Shown here: one piece after another, positions 3,344 through 22,091 of the stretch
How the letters are laid out: each line of letters starts with the position of its first letter
Numbering within the stretch: position 1 is the first letter of the stretch
Origin: Dehalococcoidia bacterium
GTDB taxonomy: Bacteria; Chloroflexota; Dehalococcoidia; Lucifugimonadales; Lucifugimonadaceae
NCBI GenBank assembly: GCA_002710135.1
Contig: PAOY01000019.1
Span: forward strand, 1 to 35,014
Length of the DNA stretch: 35,014 bases
Reading direction: 5' to 3'
The notes under the pieces: model-generated
Database searches by the model: none
Told to the model about the DNA's origin: nothing
Seen by the model: the letters and a program-made list of their open reading frames with translations, nothing else
Translations under genes and position numbers: made by a program

Positions 3344-4993
3344 TCATAAGTTTCCATCAATCATTAATTCGATTAGTCTAGGGCTTTTTGAATTAATCGC
3401 TTTTGTGATTTCTGCATTAATTTCATTAGGATCAGTTATTCTTACTGCTTCTAATCCCATAGATTTTGCGATTTCAGTATGATTTAATACCATTGGGAAA
3501 TCCATATATGGATAATCACCAGAAGTTTCAATTTCCTCTCTTATTTTTTTTCTGTAGTAGTCTATGTTAACTTTCAAAATTCTATAAGATTGATTGTTTA
3601 AGATTATAAAAACGCAAGGGATTTTATCGTTTGCTGCTGTCCAATAGCCTTGAACAGTCATCATCGCCGAACCATCACCAATAATTCCTACAACTTTTTT
3701 TTCTGGAGAAGCACATTGAGCTCCTAATGTTGCTCCAACTCCCCATCCAATTGATCCACCTCTACCTGAAACCATTTGATCTGATCTTTCAAATTTTATG
3801 TGTTCCATTAATGCGCCTCTATGACTTATAGCATCATTCACTATGAGTGCATCTTTTGGGATAGATTTTGATAGTTCAAACATTGCTCTATCTGGTGACA
3901 TAAGATCATTATTCCAATTTTTTTCGGCAGCTTCTTTTGAAGCTTGGTCATTTTTATTCTTGATTTTTGATATTTCTTCTATTCTTTTGTCTATATTTTC
4001 TATTTTTGAATAATCTATGGATTTCAATAGTTGATTTAGAATAACCTTAAGATCCCCTAGCCCCGTTATTTTTGTAGGTTGTCTATTACCTTGTGTATTC
4101 GGTTTAGAATCAAGATGTATCAAATCAGTTTTATCTGAAATTAATATATCCCCTTCATAAAACCAGTCTGAAAAAAGATCAGCTCCTGCTGAAATAATTA
4201 AGTCCGAATCATTCAATAATGATCTCTGTTGTTCGCTTCTTATTGAATGAAATCCAACCATCTGAGGGTGATTAGTTGGAAATGGAATATTTGAACCTTC
4301 AATAAATACCATCATCCCTAATTTTTCTGCTATTTGTACAGCTTCGTCTAAAGCATTATCTTCTGCAACTCTATCTCCAACTATAAGTACAGGATAAGAA
4401 GATTTTTCAATAGACTTACTAATTTCATTGATAGAATTATCATCTAATCCACCGTAAACAGGGATTGATGAAGAATGGATTTCCATGTCTGCTTCTCCAT
4501 CCAAAGCATTTGAAGAAAATGCAACAAAAACGGGTCCCTTTGGATGAGTATTAGCTTCTGTAAATGCTTTCCTCATAACTGCAGGGACTTGATCAGGAAG
4601 AACAACTTGAGTGCTCCATTTTGTAAAAGGTTTTGCTAATTCTACTAAATCTCTATTTCTTAGATTTCTTACATCATATGTTGCTGAAGTTACGACCATA
4701 GGTGTTCCTGTTGTATATGCGTCATTCATTAGACTAAATCCATTAACTAGTCCAGAGTCAATGTGAAGACTAAGAAAAGAAGCTTTATTATTAACTCTAG
4801 CGTCAGCTTCAGCCATCCCTGTTGCAACGCCTTCTTGAAGTGTTAGCAAATATCTTAGTTCTTTATGCCTAACAATTTCTTCCATAATTGGACCTTCACT
4901 TGTGCCTGGGTTCCCATACACATTAGTGATTCCTTCAGCTTTTATACATTCCATTAATGCTTTTTTACCAGTCATCTTCATAGTTTTCACCAA
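3344..4993 (-). CDS. Thiamine pyrophosphate-dependent enzyme, benzoylformate decarboxylase/acetolactate synthase-like
   Basis: 549 aa; YGNPGTSEGPIMEEI N-terminus, catalytic Glu in LQEGVATGMAEADAR, TPP motif GDGSAMMTVQGYWTAANDKIPCVFIILNN. Confidence 0.88.
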   Translation of the reverse strand: MVKTMKMTGKKALMECIKAEGITNVYGNPGTSEGPIMEEIVRHKELRYLLTLQEGVATGMAEADARVNNKASFLSLHIDSGLVNGFSLMNDAYTTGTPMVVTSATYDVRNLRNRDLVELAKPFTKWSTQVVLPDQVPAVMRKAFTEANTHPKGPVFVAFSSNALDGEADMEIHSSSIPVYGGLDDNSINEISKSIEKSSYPVLIVGDRVAEDNALDEAVQIAEKLGMMVFIEGSNIPFPTNHPQMVGFHSIRSEQQRSLLNDSDLIISAGADLFSDWFYEGDILISDKTDLIHLDSKPNTQGNRQPTKITGLGDLKVILNQLLKSIDYSKIENIDKRIEEISKIKNKNDQASKEAAEKNWNNDLMSPDRAMFELSKSIPKDALIVNDAISHRGALMEHIKFERSDQMVSGRGGSIGWGVGATLGAQCASPEKKVVGIIGDGSAMMTVQGYWTAANDKIPCVFIILNNQSYRILKVNIDYYRKKIREEIETSGDYPYMDFPMVLNHTEIAKSMGLEAVRITDPNEINAEITKAINSKSPRLIELMIDGNL

Positions 4994-5068
4994 TTTCGAG
5001 ATTAAATATTTTTAAATTCCTACTTAGTTTACTTATATCTATTCCATAGTCCATAAATATTGAGTATA

Positions 5069-5074
5069 TATAAT
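5069..5074 (+). promoter_or_regulatory. Candidate -10 element (TATAAT) for the enolase-superfamily operon
   Basis: Exact TATAAT in the 151-bp divergent region 4994-5144. No convincing -35. Confidence 0.25.
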
Positions 5075-5144
5075 GCTATATTCAATTTAAATAATTGTTT
5101 TAATAAATTTATAGTAGAAAAATAAATCTATTTTTGGAGGGAAT

Positions 5145-6272
5145 ATGAAAATAACAGATATTAAAATAAATCTAATCGATGGTGCAAATACAAAAGATGC
5201 TAAGCAATTTGTTGGAGGGAACTCTAAGGTTATATTGAGAATTGATACTGACGAAGGTATATATGGGCTTTCAGAAGGTGGAAGAAACTATAATCTTTAC
5301 AAAGCTTACCTAGATGAAGTAATTAAGCCTCTTCTGATTGGAATTGATCCAAGAAATCCAAAGATGATTTGGGAAATGCTAACTCATGGAACAGGGGAGG
5401 GCTTAGCAACAAAAGTTATGCCTCAGGTTGTAGGAACAATAGATGTTGCCCTTTGGGATTTAGCTGGAAAAGCTGCAGGATTACCAGTTTATCAACTTCT
5501 AGGAGGAGCTGCTAGAACAGAGATACCTTTGTATTGGAGTAGAGGAAGTGGTTGGAGGAAAACTCCTGATGAAATGTTAGAAGATGTCAAATTAGGTTAC
5601 GAAAAAGGCTACAAAGCATTTAAGATAAGAATGGACTGGAGGTCTTTTAGACAAGATTCTGACCCTAAAAAAGATTTTAGTTTATTTAAGAAATGTAGGG
5701 AATTTCTTCCTGATGATATAGACCTTAGTTTTGATGCAAACTGTGGTTATTCTGTGCCTACAGCCATTGAACAGGGTAAAAGATTTCAAGATCTTGGCAT
5801 AGCCCATTTTGAAGAACCTCTTCCTGAATATGACTATCAAGGATTAAGGCAAGTTGTTGATGCTCTTGAATGCTCTGTTTCTACTGGTGAGCAAGAACCA
5901 AATCCCTATAGATTTAGAGATTTAATGGACATAGGGAACCCAGATATACTCCAACCAGATATATTAAATATTGGTGGAATAACAGGATTAGTGAAAGTTT
6001 ATGAAATGGCTATGGCTAGAAATAAAATAATCATGCCACATTGCCCTCAAGCAGGATTAAACTTAATTGGTAGTCTTCATGCATATGCAACAGTGACAAA
6101 TGCCGTTAGGCCTCATGAATTTTCAGAGGAATTTACAGGTCCTGTTGAAAACATTGCTAGGCTTTTCAAGGAACCAATTGTTCCTGAAAATGGCAGAATA
6201 GTATTGTCAGATAAGCCTGGTTTAGGTTTAGAATATGATGAAAATGAATTAAATAAAGTAATAAGAATATAG
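5145..6272 (+). CDS. Enolase superfamily, mandelate racemase/muconate lactonizing enzyme-like (probable sugar-acid dehydratase)
   Basis: 375 aa; FKIRMDW (KxR), FDANCGY, HFEEPLPEYD, STGEQE, QPDILNIGGITG and MPHC match the MR-subgroup metal-binding and catalytic positions. SD GGAGG upstream of ATG. Confidence 0.88.
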   Translation: MKITDIKINLIDGANTKDAKQFVGGNSKVILRIDTDEGIYGLSEGGRNYNLYKAYLDEVIKPLLIGIDPRNPKMIWEMLTHGTGEGLATKVMPQVVGTIDVALWDLAGKAAGLPVYQLLGGAARTEIPLYWSRGSGWRKTPDEMLEDVKLGYEKGYKAFKIRMDWRSFRQDSDPKKDFSLFKKCREFLPDDIDLSFDANCGYSVPTAIEQGKRFQDLGIAHFEEPLPEYDYQGLRQVVDALECSVSTGEQEPNPYRFRDLMDIGNPDILQPDILNIGGITGLVKVYEMAMARNKIIMPHCPQAGLNLIGSLHAYATVTNAVRPHEFSEEFTGPVENIARLFKEPIVPENGRIVLSDKPGLGLEYDENELNKVIRI

Positions 6273-12017: not shown

Positions 12018-12881
12018 CTAGTAAATTGTTTTTGTAAGATTACTCTTAAAAATGTTTTTTTGAACCAAATTGATTTGATTAATTATTTTTTCTATTGTTT
12101 CTTGATCACTTGCTTGCTTAGTACTCCAAGCGATCAGATGATCTATAAAAAAATCTCCGTTAAGAACAAAGTTTTCTAGATTCAAATCTGAAAGAGTGTT
12201 TATATTCTTCTCATTATGCGGATATTCTAGAATACACTTATTATTAGATTCATTTTCCAAATTTACTAATCCTATAAGAGTCTCATCGAATATTTTATCT
12301 CCACTTTTTCTTATACCCCAAAATTGAGGTTTGATGTCCTTATTTATTAGGGTCTCTATTCCAGAAATTATTATCTCTTTTTCATTATGGTTTTTATTAT
12401 TTTCAAGTTTAGATTTAAAATCAATATCGATTATTAATCCTTTGTTGTATGAGTTACAAATTTCAATTAATCCTAATAACCTATCTATCGCTAATTCTTC
12501 AGCTAATTTGCTTCTGTTTTTCTCAAAATATATTTTCACGCTAAGTAAATTTGGATCAAAAATATTAATTATTTCCAATGCATCTTTTGCGCTGGGAATA
12601 GCTAGTCCCCCTCGATTTATGTGTTCAATAGCAATAGCAGTTTGAATATTTGACTTCTTCGATTGAAATAAAATACCTTCACATAAATTAGGTTCCCCCC
12701 AAATAAAGTAATTATTGTCCTTATTTGATTGGTTTAGTGATTCATAAATTAGATTTGCAGCTTTATTTGCTTGAAGCTTTTCAAGAGCTGATTTAGGACG
12801 ATTTTGATCTAAATTACACGATAAAACATTTGTCCTGTTATCTAATCCTATAAAAAAATTATTTTGTTTATTATCAATCAT
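12018..12881 (-). CDS. Divergent TIM-barrel aldolase-like protein (DUF2090 / tagatose-bisphosphate aldolase-like)
   Basis: 287 aa. IFDPNLLSVKIYFEKN...RLLGLIEICNSYNKGLIIDIDF resembles the DUF2090 segment FDPxxxKVxVxYNP...RLxxLxxxC; C-terminal FVLNGDFFIDHLIAWSTKQASDQETIEKIINQINLVQKNIF resembles GFAxGRTxFxxPxxAWxxGxIxxxExxxxIAxxYxxxI. Based on remembered family patterns. Confidence 0.5.
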   Translation of the reverse strand: MIDNKQNNFFIGLDNRTNVLSCNLDQNRPKSALEKLQANKAANLIYESLNQSNKDNNYFIWGEPNLCEGILFQSKKSNIQTAIAIEHINRGGLAIPSAKDALEIINIFDPNLLSVKIYFEKNRSKLAEELAIDRLLGLIEICNSYNKGLIIDIDFKSKLENNKNHNEKEIIISGIETLINKDIKPQFWGIRKSGDKIFDETLIGLVNLENESNNKCILEYPHNEKNINTLSDLNLENFVLNGDFFIDHLIAWSTKQASDQETIEKIINQINLVQKNIFKSNLTKTIY

Positions 12882-14295
12882 TACTTAACTTACTTAAGTT
12901 ATTTATTAATTCTTCATAATTTGTTTCAAAATAAAGAGATTTTCTACCATTTTTGATCATTTCTAAATGATCTGAATATCCCTGTTTTTTTACAAATGTA
13001 TTTAGAGTGTACAATGATTTTGGGATATTAAGGTCCTCGTTACCGTGTAAATTTATTACTAGATTCTGTATGTTATTGAAGCTACCTTTCAATAACTGTC
13101 CCATTGAATGCAAATAATTTGGTGCAAAAAATATCAATATTCTTTTGTTTTTATTAGAAGCTTTTTCACATAAATTAATCATTTTTTCTTTTTGTTCAAT
13201 AGTTAAATTTGTTCCATGAATTAATAAAGAAATAAATCCTTTGCTTATTTGAATTTCTTCATATAATTGATTTGCTTTGTATTGTTTTTCAAAATTATTT
13301 TCTTCATTATTCATGAGTAAATTTTGGGTTGTAATTTTTGTAGATTCTACATTCGGCTGATCAAATGGTTGTATGTTTATTGAAGTACAAAATATTGCTA
13401 TAGCATAATTTAAGACTTGGAATTTGTAAAACAAAGATTCATTATATTCTGTTTTAAGATTGATATTATTTTCTGAAAATAAATCCTCAGATGATGAAAA
13501 ACTAATGCATGGGTAGTTTCCATTAATATTTTTTAAGGGCAAAATTCCTTTTTCTTCTTTACCTGTTGATTCTGAGATCAATTGTTCTATCCAATCAGTT
13601 ATATAATCATTTTTATTTTCTGATAATACTGTGAAGATATTTTTGCCTTGTTTGTAGTTGCTTAAAAGAATTCCTGCTATTAATAATGCAGGATTATTCA
13701 TTTCATTTTTTATACAATTTTCATTAGCCTTATTTATATTTGAAATTATTTTACTTAATTTAAATCCACATAAATAGAATGGCAAAATTCCTAAATGCGT
13801 TGAGATACTAAATCTTCCCCCTGTTTTTTGGGGTGTGGCTAATATTTTCGAATCATCATTGTTTCCATCTTGTATATAAAATATATTACATTTTTTTTCA
13901 CCAATAATTTGTTTTAGTATTTTAGTTTCTAATGTCTTCCTTGATTTAGAACATATGAATACGGCTGTAGATAAATTATTTATCTTTTCTTTTATTTTTT
14001 TTATATGTGATATATCAAAATTATCTATAAATAGAATTTTTGATGGATTAATAAAAGAGGCGATTCTTGCCATACTTATAGACCCTCCCATACCTATAAA
14101 AACATAGTTCTCAAATTGGTCTATTTTTCTGTAAATTTCTTGAAATTCATCAATATGTATATTTTTAGTCCATTGAACTGGGATTTCTTCATAATTTTCA
14201 AAATCTCCTAAAGGGAATGAATCTTTAGTGGGCGTTAGAATCTTATTTATTATATTTTGATCAATTATTTGATCTAAATATTGTTCAAGCCTCAT
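12874..14295 (-). CDS. pgi: Glucose-6-phosphate isomerase (SIS-domain, Tal-Pgi-type)
   Basis: 473 aa: VFIGMGGSISMARIA (SIS), GGRFSISTHLGILPFYLCG, QPFDQPNVESTK. Start overlaps the tal stop as ATGA. Confidence 0.85.
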   Translation of the reverse strand: MRLEQYLDQIIDQNIINKILTPTKDSFPLGDFENYEEIPVQWTKNIHIDEFQEIYRKIDQFENYVFIGMGGSISMARIASFINPSKILFIDNFDISHIKKIKEKINNLSTAVFICSKSRKTLETKILKQIIGEKKCNIFYIQDGNNDDSKILATPQKTGGRFSISTHLGILPFYLCGFKLSKIISNINKANENCIKNEMNNPALLIAGILLSNYKQGKNIFTVLSENKNDYITDWIEQLISESTGKEEKGILPLKNINGNYPCISFSSSEDLFSENNINLKTEYNESLFYKFQVLNYAIAIFCTSINIQPFDQPNVESTKITTQNLLMNNEENNFEKQYKANQLYEEIQISKGFISLLIHGTNLTIEQKEKMINLCEKASNKNKRILIFFAPNYLHSMGQLLKGSFNNIQNLVINLHGNEDLNIPKSLYTLNTFVKKQGYSDHLEMIKNGRKSLYFETNYEELINNLSKLSND

Positions 14296-18705: not shown

Positions 18706-20064
18706 TTATTTTTTTTTCGTTATTCTTTTTTTTCTTATATCAGAAGAAACTAATGATATCTGCTCAACTAAGTTTTTATTAGATAGTCTTGAACATATTT
18801 TTTCTGTAAAAATTGAATCTGAAGACAATGGTTCATTATTAGAATTATAAGATTTAATTTTTTCATGACTTATGCTTGAATTAATAACGGTATATTTAAG
18901 GTTGTCTTGTCTATAAGCAATAAGGTTATAAATAATCTCATCGGACCATTTTGTGTTGTTATGTCCCCATAGATCATCTAAAAAAAGATAATCTACATCT
19001 TTACATAAATCATAAATAAATCCTTTGCCTTGATTAGATCTTACATAATCTCTTACTTTATCAATAAGTTCAGAGGATGATATATAAAATAAATTTGAAC
19101 TCTTTTTATTAATTTCGTTTGCTATTGCTGCAGTTAGATAACTTTTACCAGAACCTGTCCCACCATGAATAAATAACCATGAAGGATTTTCGCTTTCAAC
19201 AAACTCTTTTGATTTCAACAAAGCCATTTCAATCGAATCAAAAGTTATCTTTTCTTCTTGTGATAATTCTTTATTTGGTTTCCTAGCTAATTTTCTTAAT
19301 TTTGAATTTTCAAAAACTTTAGGAATTCCATTGCCTTTATGATTATTTTCTTTTGAATCTAAATGAATAGTCTGAACTAGATTTGGATCTGTAAATCTTG
19401 CTTGAGATCTGTCATCAAAATCTAAAATATTTTTATTTATAACTATTACAGTTGGTAATTTTCTTGTATATCTATAAGTGAACAGATGATCCATTTTTTC
19501 TTCAATCCATTCTGAGTATTTTTGATTTCCATAGTCATCAATAATTAAGAAAGGGTAATTAATTAATTCATTAAAAGTATTTTCACTTGAATCGGAATTT
19601 GAGTTGGTTATTATATCTATAAATTCTTGTGTTGATTTGTAAATTACAATGTTGTCATTGTTAATGCAATTAATTGCAATCCCCACTGCTAGGTGGGTTT
19701 TGCCTGTTCCAGGCTCTCCGCTTATAACTAGCCATCCCATTGGATTTTTTGAATAATCGTCAGCTTTTCTTAAGCTCTCTCTTAAGTTTTTTGGGTCAGC
19801 TTTACCAATCTTACCGTCAATTTTGAACTTTTTTAGGTCATATTCAAGTAATTGATTGACGCCTGCAAAACTTAATTTTATTTTATTTTCCAAATCATCT
19901 GATTTGCCTTTTTGGCATGAGCAAGGAACAGTTTCTTTATTAACAATTATCCATCTTGCAGAATTACAAATTTCGCATTCAATATAATCAGATTCATTTT
20001 CAAATTCTTCAAAATAATTTGAACTGAATTTTCTATTATTTAAAATTTCCTTGAGGCTTTCCAA
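18706..20064 (-). CDS. Tandem (double) DnaC/DnaI/IstB-like AAA+ ATPase, putative replicative helicase loader
   Basis: 452 aa: N-terminal Cys cluster CEICN...CSC; module 1 Walker A GEPGTGKTHLA, Walker B FLIIDDYG, Arg-finger-like QARFTDPNLV; module 2 Walker A GGTGSGKSYLT, Walker B YLFLDDLWG, SRLSNKNLV. Located 2 bp downstream of dnaB. Confidence 0.82.
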   Translation of the reverse strand: MESLKEILNNRKFSSNYFEEFENESDYIECEICNSARWIIVNKETVPCSCQKGKSDDLENKIKLSFAGVNQLLEYDLKKFKIDGKIGKADPKNLRESLRKADDYSKNPMGWLVISGEPGTGKTHLAVGIAINCINNDNIVIYKSTQEFIDIITNSNSDSSENTFNELINYPFLIIDDYGNQKYSEWIEEKMDHLFTYRYTRKLPTVIVINKNILDFDDRSQARFTDPNLVQTIHLDSKENNHKGNGIPKVFENSKLRKLARKPNKELSQEEKITFDSIEMALLKSKEFVESENPSWLFIHGGTGSGKSYLTAAIANEINKKSSNLFYISSSELIDKVRDYVRSNQGKGFIYDLCKDVDYLFLDDLWGHNNTKWSDEIIYNLIAYRQDNLKYTVINSSISHEKIKSYNSNNEPLSSDSIFTEKICSRLSNKNLVEQISLVSSDIRKKRITKKK

Positions 20065-20066
20065 AA

Positions 20067-21452
20067 TTAATTCTCTTGTGTTGATAATTGATTGTTTCTA
20101 ACTGAATCAATAGACACAAATCTACCAATAGAATCATCTACTGCCAAAGGTACAGTGTCTGTAGGCCCATTTCTATGTTTTGCAACAATTATTTCAGCTT
20201 GACCTTCTGGATATGGAATCCCAGGATTATTTTTTATCCAATCTTCTTTAGTCACAAATTTTTCTTCTCGGTGAATGAACATTACAACGTCTGCATCTTG
20301 CTCAATAGATCCTGATTCTCTTAAGTCTGATAACAAAGGTCTATGAGATTGTCTGTGCTCAATTGCTCTTGAAAGTTGAGATATAGCTAAAACAGGGACT
20401 TTTAAGTCTCTAGCCATAGCTTTTACTTGTCTAGAAATTTCTGAAACTTCTTGTGCTCTGTTAGTTTCTCTAGATCCTTTATTATTACTAAGTAGTTGCA
20501 TATAGTCTAAGATGATAAAATCTAAGCCATATTCAAGCTGCAATCTTCTAGCCTTTCCTCTCATTTCAGCAACGCTTTGTATAGGAGAATCATCTATAAA
20601 TATAGATAAGTCTGAAAGTTTACCAATTGCATCAATTAATCTATTCTCTTGAGATGTACTTAATCTCATCATTCTCAAGGAATGCATATTTATTCTAGCC
20701 TGAGTAGCCAACATTCTTGTAGCGATTTGCTCTCTTCCCATTTCCAGAGAATATATTGCAACTTTATGATCATTCATAGCTGAGTTTATTGCTAAGTTTA
20801 ATGCAAACATAGATTTACCGACTGAAGGTCTTGCTGCAAGCACTAGCATATCTGATCTTTGTAGCCCTCCTAAAAGTTCGTCAAGCATTTTGAACCCAGA
20901 TCCTATGGGTGCATTTTCTCCATCATTTATTTCACTAGAAGAGGTTTCAAGAAAGGGTGTTAATGTTTCTCTTAATGGGACAAAGTCTCTACTTGGTTGG
21001 TCATTTCTAATGCCATAAATAATATCTTCAGCCTTTGATAAAGATGTCTCTACATCAGGGTCATTTTCAAATCCAATGTCTGAAATATTTTCAGCAGCAT
21101 TGATAAGTGTTCGCATTGTAGCTGTTCTTCTGACTAGATTTGCATAATGCTTTATGTGGATAGAGGTTGGAACGACATCTACTACCTTTGCAAGATAAGC
21201 TCTACCTCCAACTTCTTCTAGCTTTTCTTGTGTTTCAAGCTCATGAGCTATAGTTATTTGATTGATAGGCTCTTGACGATTAAAAAGGTCTCTAGCAATC
21301 TCAAAAATGACTTTATTAGGCTCTAAATAAAAATGCTCAGGTTCTAAAAAAGATGCTATTTTAGTAAAAGACATCCCGTCTAGTAGTAAAGAACCAATTA
21401 CTGATTCTTCAGCAGATATATCATGTGGGAAAAGTTTGTCAGATAACACCAT
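20067..21452 (-). CDS. dnaB: Replicative DNA helicase DnaB
   Basis: 461 aa: PHDISAEESVIGSLLLD, LAARPSVGKSMFALNLA, FIILDYMQLLS, LSDLRESGSIEQDADVVMFIHREE. Confidence 0.97.
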   Translation of the reverse strand: MVLSDKLFPHDISAEESVIGSLLLDGMSFTKIASFLEPEHFYLEPNKVIFEIARDLFNRQEPINQITIAHELETQEKLEEVGGRAYLAKVVDVVPTSIHIKHYANLVRRTATMRTLINAAENISDIGFENDPDVETSLSKAEDIIYGIRNDQPSRDFVPLRETLTPFLETSSSEINDGENAPIGSGFKMLDELLGGLQRSDMLVLAARPSVGKSMFALNLAINSAMNDHKVAIYSLEMGREQIATRMLATQARINMHSLRMMRLSTSQENRLIDAIGKLSDLSIFIDDSPIQSVAEMRGKARRLQLEYGLDFIILDYMQLLSNNKGSRETNRAQEVSEISRQVKAMARDLKVPVLAISQLSRAIEHRQSHRPLLSDLRESGSIEQDADVVMFIHREEKFVTKEDWIKNNPGIPYPEGQAEIIVAKHRNGPTDTVPLAVDDSIGRFVSIDSVRNNQLSTQEN

Positions 21453-21470: not shown

Positions 21471-22091
21471 CTAATTATTTGAATTATTATCTCCATTTTC
21501 TTCATTTTCAGAAGTAGTTTTTTGAGTGTTTTCTTCGTTATTAGAAATTTCTTCAGAAATTTCTTCAGAATTAGCTTCTTTTTCTTCTAATTTCTTTAGT
21601 TTAGCTTGCTCTATTTTATGCTCTTCCATCACCTTTACAGATTCTTCATCTGGAATAACATTCAGTGTTAGGTTTAATGTAACCTCTTCAACAAATTTTG
21701 CAAAAACTTTAAATTTACCTATTACTCGTATTGGCTCGGTGATATTGAAAAACCTTCTGTTCATAGCTCTTCCAGTTTTTGCTTCTAGAGCTTCAGCAAC
21801 TATTGTAGGTGTGATCGATCCGTATAATCTACCAGTAGGACCTGTTCTTACCTCAAGGTCTAATTCAACATCTTTAAGACTATCTGCAACAACTTGCCAA
21901 TCTTTTGTTTCTTGAATTCTTCTTTCTTCAGCTTCAGCTCTAAGTTTTGTAGCTCTTTGAAGAGCTTCTTCTGTAGCTAGTACAGCTACTCCTTGAGGAA
22001 TAAGAAAATTCCTAGCAAATCCAGGTTTTACGTTCTTAACATCTCCTGCTCTTGCTGTAGGCAATAAATCTTTCAAAAATAATATGTCCAT
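21471..22091 (-). CDS. rplI: 50S ribosomal protein L9 with acidic/Asn-rich C-terminal extension
   Basis: 206 aa: MDILFLKDLLPTARAGDVKNVKPGFARNFLIPQGVAVLAT (L9 signature); tail EEISEEISNNEENTQKTTSENEENGDNNSNN. Confidence 0.95.
   Translation of the reverse strand: MDILFLKDLLPTARAGDVKNVKPGFARNFLIPQGVAVLATEEALQRATKLRAEAEERRIQETKDWQVVADSLKDVELDLEVRTGPTGRLYGSITPTIVAEALEAKTGRAMNRRFFNITEPIRVIGKFKVFAKFVEEVTLNLTLNVIPDEESVKVMEEHKIEQAKLKKLEEKEANSEEISEEISNNEENTQKTTSENEENGDNNSNN
21543..21570. repeat. 12-bp in-frame tandem repeat (about 2.3 copies) within the rplI 3' extension
   Basis: AGAAATTTCTTC AGAAATTTCTTC AGAA on + strand, encoding SEEISEEIS on - strand. Confidence 0.7.

Follow-up and report, generated by a model that had tools for sequence, protein, structure and literature searches.

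A two-module AAA+ protein encoded beside dnaB, the probable replicative helicase loader of much of the Chloroflexota

Known loaders of the bacterial replicative helicase, such as DnaC and DnaI, carry one AAA+ module per chain, and a locus in a Dehalococcoidia bacterium (Lucifugimonadaceae; GenBank assembly GCA_002710135.1) raises the question of what a protein with two such modules is doing directly downstream of dnaB. The window, i.e. the whole stretch of 35,014 nucleotides analysed here (contig PAOY01000019.1, positions 1 to 35,014), encodes this 452-aa protein on the minus strand, and the source genome (G000, 940 kb, 65% complete) has one copy of it.

Layout and profile matches of the protein

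The preliminary description of this DNA had placed two DnaC/DnaI/IstB-type ATPase modules in a single chain, encoded 2 bp from dnaB. Both statements hold: all of the quoted motifs were found, profiles and the AlphaFold model agree on two modules, and the coordinates put the start of the gene 2 bp past the dnaB stop codon, on the same strand. The features are as follows.

18706..20064, minus strand: probable double AAA+ helicase loader, 452 aa, TTG start, with tandem relatives
20065..20066, no strand: 2-bp junction, where other Chloroflexota have a dnaD-like gene that is absent in the window's genus
20067..21452, minus strand: dnaB, replicative helicase, 461 aa (PF03796, 2.7e-93; PF00772, 1.4e-30)
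21471..22091, minus strand: rplI, ribosomal protein L9, upstream of dnaB (Pfam)
19915..19977, minus strand: Cys knuckle C-x2-C-x14-C-x-C, residues 30-50, presumed zinc site
19336..19875, minus strand: AAA+ module 1, about residues 64-243 (profiles, AlphaFold)
19693..19719, minus strand: module 1 Walker A, GEPGTGKTH, residues 116-124, K122 invariant
19534..19551, minus strand: module 1 Walker B, FLIIDD, residues 172-177 (alignment)
19396..19410, minus strand: module 1 arginine coupler R219 and arginine finger R223, no sensor-II arginine following
18727..19320, minus strand: AAA+ module 2, about residues 249-446 (profiles, AlphaFold)
19138..19164, minus strand: module 2 Walker A, GGTGSGKSY, residues 301-309, K307 invariant
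18973..18990, minus strand: module 2 Walker B, YLFLDD, residues 359-364 (alignment)
18733..18792, minus strand: module 2 arginine finger R426 to sensor-II R444

The longer motifs begin at residues 116 (GEPGTGKTHLA), 172 (FLIIDDYG) and 221 (QARFTDPNLV) in module 1, and at 301 (GGTGSGKSYLT), 359 (YLFLDDLWG) and 425 (SRLSNKNLV) in module 2. Elsewhere in the window, the L9 protein has 206 aa, about 60 of which lie outside the Pfam-matched part, and a transaldolase gene is accompanied by a 473-aa ORF (12874-14295) that matches glucose-6-phosphate isomerase only weakly (E 0.0021) and by a 287-aa ORF (12018-12881) without a Pfam match at 1e-5.

PF01695, the IstB/DnaC-type profile, matched two stretches of the protein (4.8e-19; 69.2 bits against a cut-off of 24.1), as did PF00308, likewise with two significant stretches. 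Searched separately, as the preliminary description had proposed, each half matches DnaC/DnaI/IstB-type AAA+ profiles: PRK08116 (7.2e-21), PRK06835 (5.2e-20) and the IS21 helper (2.8e-14) for the N half, and PRK06835 (1.3e-19), DnaI PRK08939 (9.7e-15) and the IS21 helper (1.1e-11) for the C half. The two halves are 25% identical over 153 aa (E 4e-9). The closest profile match of the whole protein is phrog_50, the 'DnaC-like helicase loader' (5.9e-57); its scores against the more specific families stay well under their cut-offs, at 90.4 bits for DnaI PRK08939 (228), 73.5 for the DnaC equivalog PRK07952 (357), 95.6 for IstB NF038214 (200) and 85.4 for DnaA (343.9). The AlphaFold model contains two complete AAA+ cores (mean pLDDT 79.7), with an arrangement between modules that is not confidently predicted, either for the window protein (pTM 0.50) or for an Anaerolineae-type relative (pTM 0.58). 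In Foldseek, single modules align with DnaC and DnaI structures at a TM by target of about 0.6-0.8. The top Foldseek matches, which span both modules, are p97/Cdc48-like, but with a TM of about 0.2-0.35 and an rmsd of 13-21 A we rejected kinship to these proteins. A coronavirus profile matching the N-terminal 75 residues at E 0.0014, below cut-off, was dismissed as chance.

Ahead of the modules, the AlphaFold model predicts a short N-terminal helix (residues 4-12) followed by the Cys knuckle, whose cysteines 30, 33, 48 and 50 are invariant in the 32 aligned tandem relatives. The Cys motif of the preliminary description is thus present, with CEICN beginning at residue 30 and CSC at residue 48, although the two are separated by 13 residues and not by 15. 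Its suggested likeness to the DnaI zinc region stands as far as the cysteines go; however, the DnaI zinc-fold profile (DnaI_N) was unmatched by four loader N-termini up to E 10, and for this reason the assignment of a helicase-binding part is a guess.

Residue conservation in the two modules

Residue conservation was counted in an alignment of 32 tandem relatives and P-loop conservation in 140 tandem proteins. The Walker A lysines of both modules are conserved in all 140, and the Walker B aspartates are nearly invariant. Module 1 has an asparagine at sensor I (N210), the coupler R219 (32/32) and the finger R223 (28/32, with Lys in three), and is missing the sensor-II arginine. Module 2 has the finger R426 (32/32) and the sensor-II R444 (30/32), with a serine at sensor I (S397) and a lysine at the coupler position. 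The sensor-II arginine of the N module is missing in most Dehalococcoidia and present in 30 of 31 Anaerolineae-type proteins. At the position of the ssDNA contact, all nine members of the window's genus keep a Lys/Arg in module 2, and seven of the nine have lost it in module 1. The earlier view that both ATPase sites are apparently intact therefore applies to Walker A, Walker B and the arginine finger, but neither to sensor II of module 1 nor, in this genus, to its ssDNA-contact Lys/Arg.

In E. coli DnaC the corresponding roles are held by K112 (Walker A), N203 (sensor I), R216 (coupler), R220 (finger) and R237 (sensor II), and ssDNA is contacted by K143, F146, S177 and Y179 (PMC8213410). Without sensor II, DnaC loses its ATPase activity and retains loading in vitro, and K143 is essential for both ATPase and loading (PMC8213410). 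Read against these mutant phenotypes, the unequal residues suggest module 2 as the probable main, DNA-responsive motor and module 1 as its probable partner, which would hold nucleotide and serve a structural role or act in trans.

Distribution, gene order and relation to DciA

Matches to the protein were found in 59 of 60 relatives, typically as a two-module ORF of about 450-520 aa. The double form persists down to 23-30% identity, a degree of conservation that puts it beyond chance. Named contigs carrying the family belong to Dehalococcoidia, Dehalococcoidales, Anaerolineae, Ardenticatenales, Caldilineales and Thermoflexia, all Chloroflexota, and a protein from the window's class is up to 77% identical to contigs named Dehalococcoidia, in keeping with that class. 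Almost every sampled Dehalococcoidia genome has a tandem homologue, as do many Anaerolineae-type Chloroflexota, and other members of the phylum have one-module relatives in the same operon position. Of 197 genomes sampled from the class, 196 match the loader profile, 163 of them at E < 1e-100, a level that we took to require both modules. At five Dehalococcoidia loci (L256, L257, L258, L259 and L261) the loader next to dnaB has one module and 253-283 aa; the double form is thus dispensable within the class. A dnaD-like gene is missing from four of the five. Four other one-module loaders (L271-L274) reach 541-560 aa, with about 350 low-complexity residues preceding the Cys knuckle. Two tandem loaders (L102 and L136) lie on contigs labelled Proteobacteria and Deltaproteobacteria, which are probably mislabelled MAGs.

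The survey of relatives proposed in the preliminary description bore out the linkage to dnaB: 128 of 141 tandem loci have this gene upstream, in the same orientation. In 115 of the 141 a dnaD-like gene is also present upstream on the same strand, and in 13 dnaB occurs without it; ten further loci have the dnaD-like gene upstream with dnaB unseen by the search, and three end at a contig edge. The intervening gene matches PF07261 (DnaB_2, the DnaD domain; 4.5e-10, 3e-9, 7.2e-10 and 2.5e-6) as well as the PHROG 'DnaD-like helicase loader'. The order dnaB - dnaD-like - loader would thus appear ancestral, for one- and two-module loaders alike. Searches with Pfam and with a phylum-specific profile, which matched its positive controls, found no dnaD-like gene in any of the nine genomes of the window's genus, one of them 97% complete. 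Since this genus has lost the gene, the direct abutment of loader and dnaB is a derived state. Nor was the dnaD-like gene found in genus g5 or in genomes G053, G065, G097, G106 and G203. Among distant Chloroflexota, L034, L035, L048 and L102 have a tandem loader right after dnaB without a dnaD-like gene, seemingly through independent losses parallel to that in the window's genus.

DciA (PF05258), the loader most bacteria share, was absent from all 60 relatives in a search that was positive in 7 of 14 control genomes. Across 151 Chloroflexota genomes, with loader presence set at E < 1e-20, 93 had the loader only, 45 DciA only, none had both and 13 had neither; the Fisher p of 5e-27 overstates the evidence, since these genomes share ancestry. 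In the class sample of 197 genomes two matched DciA, one weakly (G225, 64% complete) and one strongly (G245). The strong match lies on a 3.7-kb contig (C84, L287) with dnaA and a dnaN-like frame, and there is another dnaA elsewhere in the MAG; as the contig brings in a second full dnaA, we rejected coexistence of loader and DciA in this genome as probable contamination. Five nearly complete genomes of one family of the phylum sample, f39 (G067, G080, G099, G157 and G165), had no strong loader match, DciA or dnaD-like gene; another f39 genome, G142, has a weak DciA match, so DciA has perhaps diverged in f39.

Mutual exclusion of Dna[CI] and DciA was described in 1,426 genomes by Brezellec et al. 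(2016, PMC5109545), who also reported one dna[CI] domestication in Chloroflexi. As far as that paper was accessible, our counts agree with it, and they further divide the phylum itself into genomes with DciA and genomes with the loader. The domesticated gene is very probably the one studied here; the accessible part of the paper makes no mention of two modules, of a dnaD-like neighbour or of a phylum split between loader and DciA. The exclusivity with DciA points to the window protein as a replicative helicase loader, an identity that we regard as very likely. We would likewise be surprised if helicase loading in much of the Chloroflexota did not normally fall to the double version, which appears to replace DciA there.

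The protein has the PF01695 domain and sits in a genome without DciA, as expected of Dna[CI] loaders, but it does not have the single module per chain; it is therefore a variant of this group and not an ordinary member. With E. coli DnaC (NP_418781.1; PDB 6QEL/6QEM) it shares the AAA+ fold, the order of motifs, the ssDNA-contact positions and a coupler and finger four residues apart, and, being linked to dnaB, it would share the partner, as DnaC works with DnaB. However, DnaC has one module per chain and the window protein two, plus the Cys knuckle, and dnaC sits in dnaT-dnaC, outside the dnaB operon, whereas the gene described here adjoins dnaB. B. subtilis DnaI (PDB 4M4W) is similar in its AAA+ module, in a metal-binding N-terminus comparable to the Cys knuckle and in the company of a DnaD-type protein, which is found with the loader in most Chloroflexota; it differs in having one module per chain and in the zinc-fold Pfam profile, which is unmatched here. 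The phage DnaC-like loaders (phrog_50 and phrog_3277) give the closest profile match, yet they are single-module proteins, and IstB, the IS21 helper ATPase of the same AAA+ branch, has a single module, its target being a transposase. In the open-licence literature we found no description of a double-module loader, and hence no characterised family of this architecture, or of DnaD in Chloroflexi. The loader type and its acquisition in Chloroflexi are thus already known, judging from the accessible part of PMC5109545; we found no description of the two-module form through much of the phylum, of the asymmetry in residues or of the DnaD-like loss.

Origin of the double form and proposed mode of action

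The preliminary description had put forward a phylogeny of the halves as a way to tell intragenic duplication from fusion. The halves are indeed homologous, but one and several origins could not be separated. A careful tree of 98 modules and 183 columns, from which the C module of the window protein was left out, had an unresolved backbone; a first-pass FastTree placement of that C module among phage proteins was judged a long-branch artefact. We give about even weight to the double form having arisen several times, by independent tandem duplications or fusions, and not once early with later losses. A separate clade of Anaerolineae N and C modules only, i.e. a separate duplication, is not rejected (p-AU 0.43), and grouping all N modules in one clade is borderline (p-AU 0.084), both in favour of several origins, yet one C clade likewise escapes rejection if it includes two derived single-module loaders (p-AU 0.25; without these two, p 0.002), and the 183 columns leave the backbone unresolved. 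Several origins are also suggested by the viral contig L141 (IMGVR_UViG_3300044658_000141), where two adjacent one-module loader genes (4476-6146), the first with a Cys-rich N-terminus, could represent a fusion precursor. This contig came from a wide viral scan, of which the inspected subset otherwise held single-module proteins; querying viral contigs with the window protein for close relatives yielded none, and in an annotated phage collection, whose phages carry one module only, none of 396 matching records covered at least 80% of the double protein. Loaders with one module from genus g5 and from G050 cluster with C modules, and so do those of L256 and L259, which look as though module 1 had dropped out; a return from two modules to one has probably taken place within Dehalococcoidia.

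On sequence grounds, we consider it quite likely that the window protein is the resident Dna[CI]-type replicative helicase loader, in a double form with unequal modules, and that it works in the following manner. By analogy with DnaC and DnaI, the N-terminal helix and Cys knuckle would dock on DnaB. Both AAA+ modules, judging from their P-loops, would bind ATP and align with those of other chains on the motor face of DnaB, most likely as a trimer of covalent dimers with six modules. As in DnaC, the DnaB ring would then open for ssDNA at oriC, and ssDNA contact with ATP turnover would release the loader.

Within this scheme the number of chains is the less certain part. The covalently dimerised loader of the preliminary description is plausible, since in Bacillus one helicase hexamer carries three DnaI dimers, each with two non-equivalent monomers (PMC3791466), and three chains per DnaB hexamer is a stoichiometry that we hold to be possible, at somewhat under even weight. 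A more specific version, in which three covalent dimers provide three docking regions and six modules per hexamer, the chain dictates an alternation of unequal ATP sites, the ring therefore opens in a programmed instead of stochastic order and a DnaD-type partner is dispensed with in the window's genus, is in our view rather unlikely as a whole. Alternatively, six chains per hexamer could be bound, each contributing one module to the loader ring and keeping the other as an accessory for DnaA contact at the origin or for control of ATP turnover. We lean against this arrangement, although a single N-terminal docking region per chain would suit one chain per DnaB subunit, and relatives that share this N-terminal region make do with a single module at the same locus. 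Module 1 without sensor II and, in the window's genus, without the ssDNA-contact residue would also fit an accessory role, and with the DnaD-like factor lost in this genus another part may be recruiting. On the other hand, strict conservation extends to both P-loops and to the module 2 finger, and module 1 keeps its coupler and mostly its finger, as would be expected of modules at shared interfaces; the Anaerolineae N modules keep sensor II.

Far less probable, to the point of being hard to entertain, is that the protein is not a helicase loader but an IstB-type transposition helper or a DnaA/Hda-type regulator. It is true that IS21 helper and DnaA profiles pick up parts of each module, but the bit scores lie far below the IstB and DnaA cut-offs. 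The gene is single-copy, with dnaB, rplI and metabolic genes as neighbours; an adjacent transposase or other IS21 context was not seen, and the dnaB operon is conserved phylum-wide. Nor was DnaA domain IV found in the protein, and the genome has a separate dnaA (contig C1, 20658-21917). The exclusivity with DciA likewise argues for the helicase loader.

The question of how a single AAA+ loader opens a ring of six parts asymmetrically has yet to be answered. The single sites of DnaC and DnaI cannot be mutated separately because their subunits are identical; in the double loader two unlike sites are fixed in cis, and each could therefore be mutated alone. Relatives with one module in the corresponding place of the operon, some accompanied by a DnaD-like partner and some not, would serve as ready-made comparisons. 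Finally, a phylum divided between DciA and a dnaB-dnaD-loader system resembling that of Firmicutes bears on how frequently loaders are exchanged.
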